DNA of 51,836 bases, from positions 1 through 51,836 of the IMG/VR virus record IMGVR_UViG_3300036795_000052. One strand, 5' to 3'. The translations under genes and the position numbers were made by a program. This stretch comes from a virus. The notes beneath the pieces were generated by a model. The model was not told the origin of the DNA. It ran no database searches and saw nothing but the letters and a program-made list of their open reading frames with translations. Shown here in pieces: positions 5,438-15,685 of the stretch (position 1 is the stretch's first letter; each line of letters begins with the position of its first letter).

Positions 5438-7333
5438 TTGATTGACGGAGGCTACGAGCCGGTCATTGCTCATGAGGGCCCCGATGCTTTCATTGTCATG
5501 GCACCTCCGGGCGGCGTGCATGAGCAAATGCTCGACGGAACGGCAAGCACCCAGTACGCGCAAGATGAACTTCCTGGTATGCAGCTGTCTTCTTCCATTA
5601 TGAGGCGCAAGACTGGTGTGCAGCGTAGAGGGAGACCGCAGCCTGGTGGAGCTCTACAGCCAGAGTTTCCAGGCGCGCAGACGAGTCCTGGAACTATCGA
5701 CCCCTATGGCGAGGGTCAAGACGGACTACAGTTTCCCCAGAAGCCGGATCAGAAACTAGGCTTCGGAGCGAACTCAGGAGAAGTACGTGCGCATCCACGA
5801 GTTGACCTTGCTCAGGGTCGTGGTGTTGGTCTTGGTGCTCCTGTTGGCGGCATTGGCAACGAGTTGGGCTCTGCTGTACCATCCCCATTCACCTCGTGGG
5901 TGCGTCGGGAATACAACCGTGACCTTTACGGGATCAAGGGCCTGCGGATATATGATCGGATGCGCAAGTCCGACGGTACAGTCCGGGGGACGATGCGTCT
6001 TGCCAAGACGCCTGTTCTAGCTGGCCAGTGGTCCATGAAGCCAGCCTCTCAGTCGAAACAGGATCAGAAGATAGCCAGCTTCGTCTGGAAGAATCTGACG
6101 CGCTGGACGACTACAAGCTGGCCGCAGACTCTGACTGAAGCGCTCCTGATGCTCGACTTCGGTTACTACATGTTCGAGAAGGTCTTCGCTCCAGGGGAAC
6201 AGATTACTAATGATCCTGAGGCTCGAGATAAGATCGTCTGGCAAAAGTTGGCCCCTCGACATCCCATGGACGTCAAGGAGTGGTTCTTCGACTACGAAGG
6301 TGGACCTCTATCGGTTGACCTATGGGCGCCACCAGTGTACGTTCCTGGTCTACAGGGAGGCGTCTTCCAGGGTTTCGAACAGTGGGTCAATATCCCGATC
6401 AACAAGCTTCTGGTCTTTTCCTTTGACAAGGAAGCTGGCAATATCGAGGGTATCTCCCTACTGCGTAGTGCGTATAAGCACTGGTACTACAAGGACAACC
6501 TTTACAAGATAGATGCGATCCAGAAGGAGCGTCATGGCATCGGTGTTCCGGTCATTCAACTGCCAGTCGGTTATAGTCCGCAGGATCTTTCTCTCGCTGA
6601 TAGTCTGGGGCGTAATCTGCGTACTAATGATCGCGCCCATGTGGTTCTTCCACCCAACTGGACCCTAACGTTTGCAGAGCTGAAGGGTCAGCCGGTCGAC
6701 TGCATCGCCTCGATCAATCACCACGATACGCAGATCGAGAAGCAGATCCTCGGCCAGTTCATTAACTCGTACACGAAGACTGACGAGCAAGATCAAACCT
6801 TGTTCCTGAAGGCGACAAGGTTCACAGCCGACATCGTGACGGACGCGATTAACTCGTACGCCATACCTCAGCTCGTCGACATGAACTGGGCGGGTATGGA
6901 ACCTCCTCAGCTCGTCGTGAAGCGAATTGGTGAACAGGAAGACTGGCGTACAGCCAGCTTCACTATCAGGAACTATGTAGGGGCCGGCGTCATTGTTCCT
7001 GACCAGCCTCTCGAGGACGCGATCCGAGACGAACTCGGACTGCCACCTTCGGACCCAGCAACCTCTCGTCTCGTCCGTTCGACGGAGAACCGGAACGTTG
7101 CACAGCCTGCTCCTGGCGAGCTTCCAGGCAGCCCAGAAGACATTGCGGCAGCGCTCAAGAGTGGCCAGATAACTCCGGAACAGCTTCAGCAAATGCAAAA
7201 TGCGCCTCAGTCTCCGGCAGGGCAACAGCAAGGAGCACAGCCAGGCGCTCCACGACAGGCAGCGCCTGGTACGACTGCACCATCCACAGGCAAGGGCGAT
7301 AGCTCAGGCAATGCGGGAAGAAGGGGTCAGTAA
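5438..7333 (+). CDS. Portal protein, DUF935 (Mu gp29-like)
   Basis: The dodecameric ring at the DNA entry vertex. The core is of the Mu-type DUF935 family: GLRIYDRMRKSDGTVRGTM, then the long helical stem region and LGQFINSYTKTDEQDQ. The C-terminus is a Pro/Gln-rich tail of low complexity. The start is uncertain: TTG at 5438 has a poor site, while the open frame upstream reads DFRDLPRADLQGLIDGG and a strong GGGGAGG precedes an ATA codon at 5396, so translation may begin there. It ends coupled (TAATG) to the next gene. Confidence 0.9.
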   Translation: MIDGGYEPVIAHEGPDAFIVMAPPGGVHEQMLDGTASTQYAQDELPGMQLSSSIMRRKTGVQRRGRPQPGGALQPEFPGAQTSPGTIDPYGEGQDGLQFPQKPDQKLGFGANSGEVRAHPRVDLAQGRGVGLGAPVGGIGNELGSAVPSPFTSWVRREYNRDLYGIKGLRIYDRMRKSDGTVRGTMRLAKTPVLAGQWSMKPASQSKQDQKIASFVWKNLTRWTTTSWPQTLTEALLMLDFGYYMFEKVFAPGEQITNDPEARDKIVWQKLAPRHPMDVKEWFFDYEGGPLSVDLWAPPVYVPGLQGGVFQGFEQWVNIPINKLLVFSFDKEAGNIEGISLLRSAYKHWYYKDNLYKIDAIQKERHGIGVPVIQLPVGYSPQDLSLADSLGRNLRTNDRAHVVLPPNWTLTFAELKGQPVDCIASINHHDTQIEKQILGQFINSYTKTDEQDQTLFLKATRFTADIVTDAINSYAIPQLVDMNWAGMEPPQLVVKRIGEQEDWRTASFTIRNYVGAGVIVPDQPLEDAIRDELGLPPSDPATSRLVRSTENRNVAQPAPGELPGSPEDIAAALKSGQITPEQLQQMQNAPQSPAGQQQGAQPGAPRQAAPGTTAPSTGKGDSSGNAGRRGQ

Positions 7334-8050: not shown

Positions 8051-10195
8051 ATGGGATCCTTTACTCATGAGGACACTGGACATAATTCCAGTGCAAGTAG
8101 CACATCCCTAGCGGTCACGCTGTCTGGAGCAGTCGACGCAGGTGACCTACTTGTCTTGTGGGTACAGTCGGCAGGCGCTGCTAGTACGTCAGTTACAGAC
8201 GACTCTGGCAATAGCTGGTCGAATCCTGATAGCGGCGCACTATGGTTCTGCGCTTCAGCAGCCGACGCGCCTAGCGGTGTGACTATCACTGCTACTGTCA
8301 CGTCTAACGCTGTCTACCAGATGATCGCTGACAGGTTCTCGGTTGTAGGGTCTCCTGTCTATGGTAGTTACAACACCATTAACTCTGCCGGCACACTAGG
8401 TTTGAACTACAACTCGGCGGGCTGTGGTAGCCTTGGCACAGTCCCTGTGGATGCTTTGGCTTGGGGCGCATTCAGTTGTAATGACACTGCCGGCGATCAG
8501 GCTTACACGGCAGGTTTCCAAACAGGTACAACTGCGCCTGCTGACGTTATTGGTTCGCAGTTCACGGGTGCTCACGGCACTGGTCTTAGTGTGTACGTGA
8601 CAGACTGTGCGAACGAAAACGCAACACTAACTTGGTACGGAACAGGCTCTGGGTCTATTGGTCCTTCTGGATCGATGTACTTTACAGCTATCGCACCGCC
8701 TCCTGCAGCACTGTTCACGCACGAAGATTCTGTAATCGTACAGGCAACGACCAATGTGACTGTACTTACGGCAACACTGACGGAACCTGTTAGTGCCGGC
8801 GACTTGCTAGTCTGCGCCGTTAAGAGTCCCGACGGTTCTGTCACGTCTTCGAACCTGACTGACTCAGCTGGCAATACATGGGTAACTGCTGGCGGTGGAA
8901 ACTATCTCTACCTCGCCTACGTTCTGGCATCCAACGCTGCGCCTAGTGGCCTTACTGTCACGATAACTACAGCAGGCGTTAGCCACCACGGTATTGTAGT
9001 AGACAGGTTTACGCCTTCTTCAGGTTATGTTGCACAGTTCGTATCCTTCGCAGACAACCTCGACTTGTCGTCATTTAGTACGGGGCTGAACTATCCGTAT
9101 GGTAATCATCCTGCTGGGTCTCTCACGTCGGTTCCTGCCGGTGACTTGGCCTACATGGGGTTCTTCGTTCTAGCAGGCGATTCGTCTTGTGTCTACTCTA
9201 GCGGTTATCAGGACGGCTCTAGCGGTACGCCTACAGACATAGGTTCTCAGGTTACCGAATCGAACGGCGACGGAGGCTTCTCCGAGTACTTGCTTTCTAC
9301 CGACTCTACTGGTAACGTTGCTATGCAGTGGTTCGGTACTGGTGCCAACAATGGCGGTTGGGCCGTTGAGGGCGTCTTTACACATACCACTACGAGCGTC
9401 TCCGGATCGGTATCCTTCTTCGGCACGGGTGGCTTTATGCTAGGCGCCTCGGCTGGCATTGCGCACATGTCAGGTTCGGGGTCGTTCTCGGCGAAGGCGA
9501 CTAGTACTTATGCAAGAGCCCTGAATCTGTCAGGGTCCGGTTCGTTTACCGTTGTACATGAAGGTGTACGTCAAGGTATTGCAGCCTTCGCCGGTTCAGG
9601 ATCATTCACTGCAGGTGCTGCAAACGTCACTAAGATGGGCGCCGTACACTTCTCCGGTTCGGGTTCGTTCGAAGCGCAGGTTACTGGTGCTCGCGATACT
9701 CGTACGGCATTGCACCTAGGCGGCATTTTCATCGGTGCGAATCTACTAGGTGGTACTGCTACTAGACTACCTCTTGGTGGTAGTCTAGTAGGAACGAATA
9801 TACTCGGAGGTTTGGCTACTATAGTCGACCTACTTGACGGCACACTCGTGGAGTGGACAATGCAAGAAGTAGATATCGTTCTGGCCGAATACAACGATGA
9901 CACGCTGAACTTGTCTCTTACATCGGGCGGGTCCGCTTACGACATTACAGACCTTGAGCTCGACATGTACCTTAAGGCTAAGGCAGGTGATGCCGATAAC
10001 GCTGGAACTACCACGAAGTTGTCGACAACCACCGGTGAGATTACCATCACCAATGCCTCTCAAGGTCAGGCAACAGTTGCGATTCCCAATGCTGATCTTC
10101 AGGCGTCTTCTTACACGTTCTATAGGGTTGACGTTGTGAATGACAGTAAGAAGAACACGGCCATATACGGGAAGGTAGCGATCACATCGCTGTGA
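8051..10195 (+). CDS. Large repeat-built fibre or surface protein, 714 aa
   Basis: Two tandem copies of a beta domain of about 220 residues begin with FTHEDTGHN (residue 4) and FTHEDSVIV; each contains a DSAGN/DDSGNSW loop and a GADW/NW-type strand. Then come five SGSGSF-like motifs spaced 25-30 residues apart, LGG repeats, and a C-terminal immunoglobulin-like domain resembling the BppU N-terminal fold (VDIVLAEYNDDT to YTFYRVDVVND). This looks like an adhesin or head fibre. It is unusual to find it between portal and capsid genes instead of in the tail module. A CCCTGTGG octamer is at 8453. Confidence 0.7.
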   Translation: MGSFTHEDTGHNSSASSTSLAVTLSGAVDAGDLLVLWVQSAGAASTSVTDDSGNSWSNPDSGALWFCASAADAPSGVTITATVTSNAVYQMIADRFSVVGSPVYGSYNTINSAGTLGLNYNSAGCGSLGTVPVDALAWGAFSCNDTAGDQAYTAGFQTGTTAPADVIGSQFTGAHGTGLSVYVTDCANENATLTWYGTGSGSIGPSGSMYFTAIAPPPAALFTHEDSVIVQATTNVTVLTATLTEPVSAGDLLVCAVKSPDGSVTSSNLTDSAGNTWVTAGGGNYLYLAYVLASNAAPSGLTVTITTAGVSHHGIVVDRFTPSSGYVAQFVSFADNLDLSSFSTGLNYPYGNHPAGSLTSVPAGDLAYMGFFVLAGDSSCVYSSGYQDGSSGTPTDIGSQVTESNGDGGFSEYLLSTDSTGNVAMQWFGTGANNGGWAVEGVFTHTTTSVSGSVSFFGTGGFMLGASAGIAHMSGSGSFSAKATSTYARALNLSGSGSFTVVHEGVRQGIAAFAGSGSFTAGAANVTKMGAVHFSGSGSFEAQVTGARDTRTALHLGGIFIGANLLGGTATRLPLGGSLVGTNILGGLATIVDLLDGTLVEWTMQEVDIVLAEYNDDTLNLSLTSGGSAYDITDLELDMYLKAKAGDADNAGTTTKLSTTTGEITITNASQGQATVAIPNADLQASSYTFYRVDVVNDSKKNTAIYGKVAITSL

Positions 10196-10207
10196 TTAGC
10201 TAACTCA

Positions 10208-10317
10208 GTCTAAACTTAAGTCTAAGCGTTTAGACCATAGCTTAGACGCGAGGAGCACGCAACGCGCGTGGTCAACTATAGGGCTTCAGCTGCGCGCGTC
10301 TAACTTAAGTCTAAACG
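10208..10317 (+). repeat. Dispersed intergenic element, copy A
   Basis: Order of blocks: GTCTAA, GTCTAA, TTAGAC, then TTAGACGCGAGGA (10242 on), about 40 variable bases, and GCGCGCGTCTAA. TTAGACGCG (10242-10250) is complementary to CGCGTCTAA (10295-10303). The same blocks in the same order are at 26305-26400 (minus) and 45895-46003 (plus). Here it sits between the fibre gene and the capsid promoter. Confidence 0.85.
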
Positions 10318-10355
10318 TTCTAACAGGAAGGAGTGTTACGCAAAGTAAAGAGACG

Positions 10356-10396: not shown

Positions 10397-10684
10397 GTGA
10401 TTTACAACCCAAGCGGATCGGGCAATGTCCATGTAGACCGGATAATGGGGAGTAAGAAGATGCCTCCGAAGAAGCCGCCGGCTAAGAAGGGAATGGGTTT
10501 CGCTGCTGCAGCAAAGGCTGCTGGTGGCGGACAGAAGGGCGCCGCTATCGTTGCCGCTGCCAGTCAGAAGGCTTCTCCGGCGGCTAAGGCGGCAAATCCT
10601 AACCTCAAGAAGGTCGCTGTCAAGGGCTCGAAGAAGGCCGCTGGCGGCAAGTTCGTGAAGAAGGGTGGTGGCAAGAAGAAGTGA
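10397..10684 (+). CDS. Lys/Ala-rich basic protein with capsid-like N-terminus, 95 aa
   Basis: The GTG start gives an N-terminus IYNPSGSGNVHVD that matches the major capsid protein N-terminus (IYNPSGSGNVHID) at 12236, with different codons for several residues. The rest is a histone-H1-like tail of Lys, Ala, Gly and Pro (PPKKPPAKKG, KKAAGG). A DNA-condensing internal head protein carrying a shared capsid-targeting or scaffold-binding tag is the best inference. A second in-frame ATG (MPPKKPP) preceded by GGGGAG could yield a tagless form. It overlaps the protease start by 4 bases. Confidence 0.75.
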   Translation: MIYNPSGSGNVHVDRIMGSKKMPPKKPPAKKGMGFAAAAKAAGGGQKGAAIVAAASQKASPAAKAANPNLKKVAVKGSKKAAGGKFVKKGGGKKK

Positions 10685-11751
10685 ACAAGTATGGATTCTG
10701 GGTTGACGTCGCTAACAAGCAGTTCGGCGACCAGAGCTGGATCCACGCCCTTCCGATCGGAAAGTACGAACATCCGGTTTACGGGGCGATGGAATTCACG
10801 CCCGAGAAGATCAGCAACTTCGCGACGAGTGTGAAGACCAAGGTCCGCGGAATCGACCCGGACATCGACTACGATCACAAGGCGACTGATGGTAAGGCCG
10901 CTGGGTGGGTCAAGGACGCTAAGGTCGAAGGCGATGGTCTCCACCTCCAGGTGGAATGGACCAAGGCCGCTTCCGAAGCGATCAAGAACGGGGAGTACAG
11001 GTACTTCAGTCCTGAGTTCGATGACGAGTGGACTGACGGTCAGGGAGTTAAGCACAACGATGTCCTTTTCGGGGGCGCGCTTACCAACCGACCGTTCCTG
11101 AAGGATCTCCTGCCCGTCAACCTCTCAGAAATCACGACACACAAGGGAGACAAGGTGCCTACACCACCGACTCCTGCACCGACCCCCAGCGCACCAGTGA
11201 CTCCCCCTGTGGTTCCTTCAGCTGGAGGGTCCGCGCAGCTGGACGAGGCGGCAATCAACAAGCTGCTGTCGGAGCACCCGCTGCTCAAGCAGCTGCAGGA
11301 GCAGGTCAATTCCGCCAACACGAAGCTGGCCGAGGCTGAGCGTGCGACTAAGCTCGCCGAGACGCGTGGTCGTCTCAAGGCGCTTCAGGCGAATCAGGGT
11401 GGACGCAAGTACGTCCTTCCGCCATCGGTCATCGACAGCATCGCTCAGGGTACCGTTGCAGGTGACCCGGTGAAGATGTCGGAAGCCTTCGTTGGCTCTC
11501 TCGAGACGCTCGCCAAGGTGGGCTTCGTCGAGCTAGGCGAGCGTGGCAAGATGGGTCGGGGTGGTGCGGGTCAGGAGAAGGACGCGACGACTCAGCTCAA
11601 CGAGCTCGTGCTTCAGACTCGGGCGAACCACTTCAAGACGACCGGTAAGCAGCTTTCGTATTCCGAAGCTGTTCGAGCCGTCACGCGTGCTAACCCGGAG
11701 TTGTACCTCGAGCACCGAGCCGACTCCTACGCTGGAAAGGAGGAAAGCTAA
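10681..11751 (+). CDS. Prohead protease with C-terminal scaffold (Mu gpI-like)
   Basis: GTG start overlapping the upstream TGA; 356 aa. The first 150 residues follow the Mu-type phage protease pattern: HALPIGKYEHPVYGAMEFTP, DYDHKA (residues 62-67) and the FGGALTNRPF segment. A Pro-rich linker (residues about 158-180) follows, then a coiled coil LDEAAINKLLSEH to AETRGRLKAL typical of scaffolds. It cleaves head proteins during maturation. An internal start at 11155 probably makes the scaffold alone, as in Mu and lambda. Confidence 0.85.
   Translation: MNKYGFWVDVANKQFGDQSWIHALPIGKYEHPVYGAMEFTPEKISNFATSVKTKVRGIDPDIDYDHKATDGKAAGWVKDAKVEGDGLHLQVEWTKAASEAIKNGEYRYFSPEFDDEWTDGQGVKHNDVLFGGALTNRPFLKDLLPVNLSEITTHKGDKVPTPPTPAPTPSAPVTPPVVPSAGGSAQLDEAAINKLLSEHPLLKQLQEQVNSANTKLAEAERATKLAETRGRLKALQANQGGRKYVLPPSVIDSIAQGTVAGDPVKMSEAFVGSLETLAKVGFVELGERGKMGRGGAGQEKDATTQLNELVLQTRANHFKTTGKQLSYSEAVRAVTRANPELYLEHRADSYAGKEES
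11155..11751 (+). CDS. Nested in-frame scaffold protein (internal GTG start)
   Basis: Within the protease gene, AAGGGAGA (11143-11150) is correctly spaced before an in-frame GTG at 11155 (residue 159), exactly at the protease/scaffold boundary. The predicted product is 198 aa starting with a Pro/Thr-rich stretch, then the coiled coil. This mirrors the I/Z arrangement of Mu and C/Nu3 of lambda. The site is seen; use of the start is inferred. Confidence 0.6.
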   Translation: MPTPPTPAPTPSAPVTPPVVPSAGGSAQLDEAAINKLLSEHPLLKQLQEQVNSANTKLAEAERATKLAETRGRLKALQANQGGRKYVLPPSVIDSIAQGTVAGDPVKMSEAFVGSLETLAKVGFVELGERGKMGRGGAGQEKDATTQLNELVLQTRANHFKTTGKQLSYSEAVRAVTRANPELYLEHRADSYAGKEES

Positions 11752-12218
11752 TGCCGGGTATGGATTACAAGCTCTCCAAGGCGTTTCTCGCAACGGGCGG
11801 TTCTGTTGCGCTGAAGAAGTTTCAGGTCGTCAAGCAGGTAGCTGAGACGACTATCCAGCCTGCACAGTGTGCACTCTATGCACACACCGATGCGGTTATG
11901 CCTCTTGGTGTCCTGATGGAAGATCTTGACGCTGCGAAGACGAATACTGGTAAGGCGTTCGTCAACGTCGCTCTCGAGGGCAACGTCAAGGTCATCGTAG
12001 GCGCTACGACTAACATGGCTATCGGCAAGTACGTCATCCCGTCAATTACGGTCGATGGTGCAGTTGACGCTCTTGCCGGTATGGTAGGCGCTTCGGCAGG
12101 CACTCACGTTCTCGGCCGGATCATTGGTGTTTCAGGCAACTCGATCGGTCAGTCGGTTACTGCCGGCGACTACATAGACATCGAGCTGACGCCTGGCCTC
12201 GTTACCTACTTGACCTGA
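11751..12218 (+). CDS. Head decoration protein, DUF2190-like
   Basis: 155 aa, coupled to the protease gene by TAATG. Small beta-rich protein with TTIQPAQCALYAHTDAV, VIVGATTNMAIGKYVIPS and a C-terminal GDYIDIELTPG, the pattern of DUF2190 trimeric decoration proteins that stabilise the shell. The position directly before the capsid gene agrees. Confidence 0.75.
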   Translation: MPGMDYKLSKAFLATGGSVALKKFQVVKQVAETTIQPAQCALYAHTDAVMPLGVLMEDLDAAKTNTGKAFVNVALEGNVKVIVGATTNMAIGKYVIPSITVDGAVDALAGMVGASAGTHVLGRIIGVSGNSIGQSVTAGDYIDIELTPGLVTYLT

Positions 12219-12235
12219 TTGGGGGAGAGTCTTAA

Positions 12236-13387
12236 GTGGCAATTTACAACCCATCTGGTTCGGGCAACGTCCACATCGATGTTGTCCTTACTGGGATTTC
12301 GGTTGCATGGCCGAACGAGGGGCTGGTCGGGAATGTTCTCTTTCCGGCGGTTCCGGTTCAGAAGCAGTCGGACAAGTACTACGTCTTCGGAGGACGCGAA
12401 GGCTGGTATCCCGCTCTGGATGACGCTCGTGCACCTGGCACTGAAGCTAACGAGGTTCCTGGCCTTGAAGTCAGCCTCGGTAGTTACTACGCACAGGAAC
12501 ACGCGCTCCAGATCGCAGTCACGGACGAAGAGCGAGAGAACGCCGACTCGCCTCTGAGTCCCGATGTCGACGGTACGGAGATGCTTGCATCTCGTATCGC
12601 TCTCGGCAAGGAATACCGAATCTTCAAGATGGTCAGTAACTCTGCGAATTTCAACGCAGCGTGTACTACTGACCTGAGTTCGCCCTCCGGCGCATGGGCT
12701 AACTCGTTCCAGTGGGACAAGTATCTCACTACGCCTGCCGATCTTCCTACACCTGTGTACGACATTCGAGCAGCTTTCCGCGCAGTGCACTACACGTCGT
12801 TCCTCACGCCGAACTGTGCAATCATTCCCTACCTCGTGATGTCGTACCTCGAGGACACGCCAGACTTCGTAGATCGCATCAAGTACTCCGAGCGTGCGAT
12901 CTTGACGCCCGACCTTGTCGCCTCACTTCTGTCTCTGGATAACGTTGTCGTTCCAGGTTTCGGCTACGCGACGAACAACCCGGGACAGGTTCTCGCGCTC
13001 CAGTACCTCTGGCAGAACCAGGTACTGTTGACGTACAGCCCGCCGCGTCCTGGTCTGAAGGTTCCTGCCTTCGCGTACCAGTTCACTTGGGGCTTTGGCG
13101 GAGGCGGCGGTGGAAGTCTCGGATTCGGTTCGGGTGCCTTCTCTGGCCAGGGCATCAACGATGGTCAGGGGCTACGCGGTACGGCTCTTAACCCGACCGA
13201 CGACACGATGGGCACTGACAACGCACTCGGCGGCGGCATTGTCGACCGCTGGCGTGAAGAGCGTCGGGCCTCTGATGTGATTCGATTCCGTCAGCGGTAC
13301 GACCTCGAACTGATCGGTGTCGACTCAAGTGGCAAGTCCATTTGTGGCTTCCTCTTCCAGAACGCCATTTCGTCTACGACCGTTTAG
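12236..13387 (+). CDS. Major capsid protein
   Basis: 383 aa from a GTG start after a GGGGGAGAG site. Expected length for an HK97-fold shell protein and sits directly after protease and decoration genes. A Gly-rich loop (FGGGGGGSLGFGSG) and a C-terminal RFRQRYDLELIGVDSSGK strand are seen. Residues 3-15 (IYNPSGSGNVHID) are shared with the basic protein at 10397, which suggests a signal read by the scaffold or protease. Confidence 0.88.
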   Translation: MAIYNPSGSGNVHIDVVLTGISVAWPNEGLVGNVLFPAVPVQKQSDKYYVFGGREGWYPALDDARAPGTEANEVPGLEVSLGSYYAQEHALQIAVTDEERENADSPLSPDVDGTEMLASRIALGKEYRIFKMVSNSANFNAACTTDLSSPSGAWANSFQWDKYLTTPADLPTPVYDIRAAFRAVHYTSFLTPNCAIIPYLVMSYLEDTPDFVDRIKYSERAILTPDLVASLLSLDNVVVPGFGYATNNPGQVLALQYLWQNQVLLTYSPPRPGLKVPAFAYQFTWGFGGGGGGSLGFGSGAFSGQGINDGQGLRGTALNPTDDTMGTDNALGGGIVDRWREERRASDVIRFRQRYDLELIGVDSSGKSICGFLFQNAISSTTV

Positions 13388-14838: not shown

Positions 14839-15293
14839 TGCCTGGACCTAACACTGATAGCTCAGAGGTCATAGCTACCTACGTCTACGATATGGTGTCG
14901 GCTGCGAAGAGTGATCTAGGCCTTCAAGACGTATGGTACGGAGATCAGGAGTTGCTTCCCCATACTCCTGCAGCTTGCGTTATTCCTGGAAACAAGCGTC
15001 GAGAATTTGCCGGCGCTAGCTATCGGACGATGAACACTTTTGAAACCTATGTCTTGATATACTACGGTAAGATTCAAGACATTCAGGCTAACTTGCACGC
15101 TTCGACAGCGATAGCCGATAGCGTTGAGACTCTGGTTCATTCCGATCTCACTCTTGGCGGTAATGTCATATCGGTGATATGTACTCAGGATGAACCAGGT
15201 ATGGTAACTAAATCAGGTGTGCTTATGGTCGGAGCACGCCTAACGTTCGAGTCACAGAGTAAGACAACTTTCCCTCAGCAGGTGGTGTCATAG
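14835..15293 (+). CDS. Tail terminator or minor tail protein, 152 aa
   Basis: Starts at ATGATG overlapping the previous stop. A mixed alpha/beta protein with the size and position of tail terminator proteins. No diagnostic motif. It ends where a homing endonuclease gene has been placed between it and the next tail gene. Confidence 0.6.
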   Translation: MMPGPNTDSSEVIATYVYDMVSAAKSDLGLQDVWYGDQELLPHTPAACVIPGNKRREFAGASYRTMNTFETYVLIYYGKIQDIQANLHASTAIADSVETLVHSDLTLGGNVISVICTQDEPGMVTKSGVLMVGARLTFESQSKTTFPQQVVS

Positions 15294-15685
15294 TGCCTAG
15301 TGAGACTGATTTGGCGTGGATAGCAGGATTTTTCGATGGAGAAGGCTGCATATCAGCACGCATAACTGCTGAAGGTAGGACAACACTTCAGGTAAGTATT
15401 GGACAGAAGGACAGAACTCAGCTGGCATTTATTCAGGAGATCTTTGGCGGCTCTATAACGAAGATTAAAGGTAAGGATCATTACCACCTGAGTATGTACG
15501 CTACCAGAAGTACGCGTATGCTAGAAGCTATTATGCCCTACTTGAAACTTAAGAAGCCACAGGCTGTACTCGCACTTGAGTTTGCATCGTACGCATGTGG
15601 TCAGGGCATCAGAATAGCTGAAAATGACCACGAACGCAGACTAGAAATAGTTACAGAGCTGCGGCAACTTAAGAGAGGTGCCTAG
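15293..15685 (+). CDS. LAGLIDADG homing endonuclease
   Basis: 130 aa from GTG. The catalytic motif WIAGFFDGEGCI is at residues 9-20, followed by the usual GGSI and YLKLKKPQA elements; a single motif means it acts as a dimer. It is a selfish free-standing gene sitting between two tail genes, and its last codons (AGAGGTGCC) also supply the ribosome-binding site of the following gene. Confidence 0.9.
   Translation: MPSETDLAWIAGFFDGEGCISARITAEGRTTLQVSIGQKDRTQLAFIQEIFGGSITKIKGKDHYHLSMYATRSTRMLEAIMPYLKLKKPQAVLALEFASYACGQGIRIAENDHERRLEIVTELRQLKRGA

Follow-up and report, generated by a model that had tools for sequence, protein, structure and literature searches.

In a soil phage, the major capsid protein and a small, strongly basic protein begin with the same peptide, IYNPSGSGNVH(V/I)D. 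The peptide pair is real, is common to many genomes and is constrained as a peptide; among the interpretations considered, the sequence comparison favours a packaging address, which is probably the right one. The window, i.e. the whole stretch of DNA that was analysed, comprises the 51,836 bases of a virus record, and the features needed for the argument are the following.

5438..7333, + strand: candidate portal protein (from its position; its tblastn relatives lie upstream of the tagged genes)
8051..10195: large protein starting at 8051, first in the gene order around the finding and followed by the basic protein
10397..10684, + strand: basic protein of 95 residues, made of an N-terminal tag, a linker, a KGMGF...NPNLKKV core and a Lys/Gly tail
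10400..10438, + strand: tag on the basic protein, IYNPSGSGNVHVD, the most constrained segment of this protein
10445..10684, + strand: polycationic body of the basic protein, including a core common to free-standing untagged phage proteins
10681..11751, + strand: head maturation protease, Mu-like I protein (PF10123, E 7.2e-24; phrog_328, E 3.1e-21)
11751..12218, + strand: small head protein, candidate decoration protein (from its position; relatives occupy the same slot)
12236..13387, + strand: major capsid protein, 383 residues, HK97 fold (phrog_1005, E 6.9e-56; PDB 3bjq)
12242..12280, + strand: peptide in the capsid N-arm, IYNPSGSGNVHID, a residue-level match to the tag of the basic protein

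The basic gene lies directly 5' of the head protease gene, whose product belongs to the Mu-like I head proteases (85.4 bits against PF10123, for a gathering cut-off of 25.2) and possibly has an additional scaffold function. No confident family was found for the 11751..12218 protein by Pfam/NCBIfam and PHROG profile searches. The slot at 8051-10195, upstream of the basic and protease genes, is occupied by a large protein that varies from one relative to another (L004, L006, L014, L024, L028) and is often rich in repeats, such as ADSGTGTDSIAV or LGVATETDS; ahead of the basic gene, in the gap at 10190-10330, short TAACTTAAGTCTAA-like stretches, recognised by eye, are repeated as well. At 15293-15685, among head-tail genes, an ORF starting AWIAGFFDGEGCIS carries what we take to be the motif of a LAGLIDADG homing endonuclease.

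Both ORFs open with GTG, at 10397 and 12236, so that the proteins begin M-IYNPSGSGNVHVD-RIM and MA-IYNPSGSGNVHID-VVL respectively. The two peptides are identical at 12 of 13 residues and at 30 of 39 bases, and the serine codons differ (AGC against TCT, for instance), as the preliminary description had stated. A query made of the first 57 capsid residues matched the whole record at two places only, the second being the basic protein (E 8.9e-5). When nine base changes were placed at random over the 39 positions, none of 20,000 placements retained 12 residues or more. AGGAG-like sites precede the tagged start in nearly all of the 18 genomes listed, which indicates that this start is likely the true one and makes a wrong start codon unlikely; internal Met codons are also present in the basic protein. 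That the likeness is a matter of chance, or an artefact of annotation such as a wrong start, has a probability next to nil: the two copies occur in 15 of 15 records, the random placements are incompatible with it, and the peptide is conserved in 31 tagged sequences.

With the capsid protein as a query, 80 viral loci were collected, the near set being the 19 loci (L003-L021) whose capsid identity is 70% or more. A tagged basic ORF is found in 15 of these 19 loci, roughly 2 kb ahead of the capsid gene; the four others (L005, L012, L015, L017) comprise just 256-891 bases 5' of this gene. The preliminary description had proposed a search of relatives: all 15 near loci reaching upstream carry the same pair, and in each of the 15 full near records the peptide is present exactly twice, on the basic protein and on the capsid protein. 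In this near clade the tagged gene stands between the putative portal gene and the protease gene, and relatives of this candidate portal protein flank the tagged gene in related loci.

The distant set (38 loci, 37 records) gathers more remote capsid relatives or carriers of the basic core. The tag query matched 36 of the 37 records, mostly at the capsid protein, and six of them (G024, G038, G040, G045, G048 and G052) encode a second tagged, lysine-rich ORF, located at other genome positions; one more match, close to the end of G033, looks like an end repeat. A second search of the 23 records devoid of tagged protein, this time with the most divergent tag as the query, retrieved the capsid protein in 23 of 23 and a second protein in none. 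Later scans added tagged proteins in L226, L230 and L231. In L193, L195 and L166 the tagged gene follows another small-gene neighbourhood, so that the tag is independent of any single gene order. In five cultured capsid relatives (Ottawa, ValentiniPuff, Waltz, RHph_Y60 and KPP23; about 11-13 kb each), the capsid N-terminus was not found duplicated.

Selection acts on the peptide itself: synonymous sites are near saturation and replacement sites far from it. Between the basic and capsid tags of a same genome (24 distinct genomes), pS is 0.761 and pN 0.140 (pN/pS 0.18); among the basic tags of 18 near genomes the values are 0.779 and 0.090 (pN/pS 0.12). Region by region in 17 near genomes, pN/pS rises from 0.10 in the tag (pS 0.782, pN 0.079, zero gaps) to 0.30 in the core, 0.49 in the linker and 0.67 in the tail; no other part of the basic protein changes as slowly as the tag. 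Together with the random placements, these counts bear out the earlier proposal that the peptide, not the DNA, has been kept. They also answer the idea that the likeness is maintained at the DNA or RNA level, as a leader, a regulatory site or the scar of a recent duplication: both copies do sit at gene starts, but with synonymous sites nearly saturated, few replacements, and serine codons that switch between AGY and TCN, we rejected this explanation, which is hardly credible.

Seven residues (Y4, G8, S9, G10, V12, H13 and D15) are invariant in the 31 tags, and three of them, G8, H13 and D15, are invariant also across 43 capsid proteins. Of the 31 tags, 29 have Val or Ile at position 17 and 30 have Met or Ile at position 18; near capsid proteins have Val/Ile and Leu at these positions, so that the shared element may extend to residue 18. 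No clear sign of concerted evolution of the two copies was seen. At column 5 the identity exceeds that of shuffles (P about 0.01, 18 genomes), for a column picked post hoc and without correction for kinship.

The capsid protein has the HK97 fold by profile and by structure: PDB 3bjq is matched with a profile E of 1.5e-31 and a fold E of 6.6e-18, and the next fold matches are P74-26, HFTV1 and lambda. The profile alignment to 3bjq starts only where the shared peptide ends. Residues 1-6 and 8-27 of the monomer model have a pLDDT below 50 for a mean of 70.2, which is expected for an arm that becomes ordered only in contacts.

The basic nature of the second protein, announced in the preliminary description, is pronounced: its pI is 11.0, and its body contains 27% Lys+Arg and no acidic residue. 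The 31 tagged bodies all share this composition, with 20-35% Lys+Arg and 0-5% Asp+Glu. The 10397-10684 protein matched no Pfam or NCBIfam family, histone-like and DNA-binding ones included, and gave weak PHROG matches only; it is by its composition that DNA binding is suggested. The predicted structure, with a mean pLDDT of 55.8, is uninformative.

The likeness to the capsid targeting sequence (CTS) of T4, already put forward in the preliminary description, is a fair analogy. According to PMC9026906, the T4 internal proteins IPI, IPII and IPIII carry an N-terminal CTS that is cleaved off; it is common to IPII and IPIII, and its first 10 residues are enough for incorporation. The CTS binds the core, and gp21 cleaves it at a Glu-containing logo (LIE-9 in the same source). 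In both cases a short N-terminal peptide is found on a small basic protein, those of T4 being head proteins and ours a putative one. The phage described here differs in that the peptide is the N-terminus of the capsid protein itself, and in that it occurs on one basic protein per genome: T4 has its CTS on several internal proteins, whereas each of the 15 near and 6 distant records has one such non-capsid protein.

Another system calls for comparison, phage 80alpha, in which the capsid protein (CP), the scaffold (SP) and the host protein L27 have a common N-terminal motif that is cleaved (PMC5744158). Here too one N-terminal peptide is carried by the capsid protein and by a second protein, whose head role is in our case deduced; in 80alpha, however, the peptide is an F|A cleavage site for Prp and the second protein is the scaffold instead of a polycation. 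The shared peptide might accordingly be a common processing site, at which a head or host protease trims both proteins as Prp does, and the protease gene is indeed located between the basic and capsid genes. Against this, columns 1-18 of the 31 tags contain no Glu that could make a gp21-type site and no Phe that could make an 80alpha-type one, so that neither site occurs in any tag. Furthermore, the motif is constrained along its whole length and, in the capsid protein, this constraint reaches L18 and S22 with no break; the residue directly after D15 is not the same in the basic and capsid proteins. With no Glu logo, no F|A and a differing next residue, the tag sequence gives a cleavage role no positive support; we hold this explanation unlikely, though a little less so than the other alternatives.

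We thus return to the packaging address. By analogy with T4 and from the sequences compared, the tag is probably a copy of the capsid N-arm, kept as an N-terminal assembly address that would bring a DNA-neutralising protein into the head. A small lysine-rich protein would have received a copy of the first 15 to 18 or so residues of the capsid protein. As the prohead assembles, this tag would stand in for a capsid N-arm or use its partner, whether a neighbouring capsid subunit or the protease/scaffold, and copies of the basic protein would thereby be built into the prohead. Once inside the head, the Lys/Ala/Gly body would neutralise or condense the packaged DNA. Such a device would work like the T4 CTS, except that the signal would be the capsid protein's own arm.

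Three observations count against this address. Sixteen capsid relatives in the tree come from records in which no tagged basic protein was found, so that the tagged protein is dispensable for this capsid type. In the distant group the residues of the tag follow those of the capsid protein of the same genome only loosely (e.g. NPTGSG versus NPSGGG). Finally, N-arms can be external: it is on the outer face that the N-terminal peptide of the BPP-1 capsid protein contacts the cement protein (PMC3863775).

This last example leads to the possibility that the basic protein is attached by its tag to the outside of the head, for instance to a cement or decoration protein receiving the capsid N-terminus, the basic tail then acting outside through surface charge or adhesion. 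In BPP-1 the peptide reaches outward, where it adds to a sheet of the cement protein (PMC3863775), and in our window a small ORF of no known family precedes the capsid gene. On the other hand, an acid-free body with 27% Lys+Arg is what is expected beside DNA, and in the near clade the gene adjoins that of the protease; an outer location therefore seems quite unlikely. Alternatively the tagged protein might remain outside the virion and regulate assembly, as a chaperone or a decoy occupying N-arm sites of free capsid subunits. The mimicry of the arm by the tag and, in the near clade, the position of the gene before the capsid gene would suit such a regulator, but it leaves the polycationic nature of 31 of 31 bodies without explanation and we consider it improbable.

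The distribution of the peptide bears on which protein gave it. The KGMGF...NPNLKKV core of the tagged body is also found as a free, untagged protein of about 50-60 residues in many other phages, where it lacks the capsid-like N-terminus; these free cores come mostly from phages whose examined stretch has no such capsid family. L022, L025 and L107 have, in the same slot, longer untagged proteins that carry the end of the core, and another untagged one is present in L112. Conversely, five of the 31 tagged proteins (L019, L198, L207, L226, L231) are without the usual core and retain the tag and a lysine-rich body. The motif is widespread in capsid relatives, whereas the basic core occurs without it, from which we infer that the capsid protein was the donor of the peptide. 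L207 and L193 have the same gene, in which the resemblance to capsid N-arms spans about 28 residues, and this points to a capsid origin too. Taken together, the free untagged cores, the coreless tagged proteins and the L193/L207 likeness suggest that basic proteins received the capsid N-arm as a graft, and not the reverse.

The free core protein is itself basic and has an invariant pattern, KGMGF..AAA....I.A..R.AS..AK..NPNL.KV, in varied gene neighbourhoods (alignment A3: L101, L106, L109, L110, L113-L115, L124-L126, L130, L131, L142, L143, L145), and ORFs that by eye look GroEL-like lie close to it in L109 (34-1437) and L110 (1005-2588). Among the free cores scanned, no Pfam/NCBIfam family came above cut-off. 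Five of 16 members matched phrog_1999 weakly (best E 0.0013), and five of 16 the C-terminal stretch of the head maturation protease phrog_53 (best E 0.0065; e.g. L109, 3141-3308); we relied on neither for naming them. Searches with the tagged and free cores gave zero matches in 50,697 records of cultured phages, a search whose low-complexity filter may mask such queries, and zero in genome contigs.

On the capsid tree (40 rows, the first 17 residues being left out), tagged genomes form two groups, which require three changes or more; well-supported branches force two of these. Two gains, a transfer of the tagged gene and repeated loss each fit this tree. More tentatively, we propose that phages of this capsid family grafted their own N-arm onto unrelated polycationic tails at least twice (or acquired the graft by transfer), and that a histone-like lining might in this way be tethered inside the shell through the arm-binding sites. 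The arm would then be a portable, self-derived packaging tag within a general loading system, an extension that we regard as possible and not as the likelier outcome.

T4-like and giant phages are known to use short packaging addresses at protein N-termini; to our knowledge the signal is never, in those phages, the N-terminus of the capsid protein itself. A literature search, with most subscription journals outside its scope, returned, in the material it covered, no description of a basic protein that carries a copy of the capsid N-arm. If the capsid N-arm is indeed a portable tag, it would reveal what this arm recognises; it would also explain how a protein could be loaded into the head of a siphovirus-like phage, and would provide a ready-made tag for the loading of cargo.
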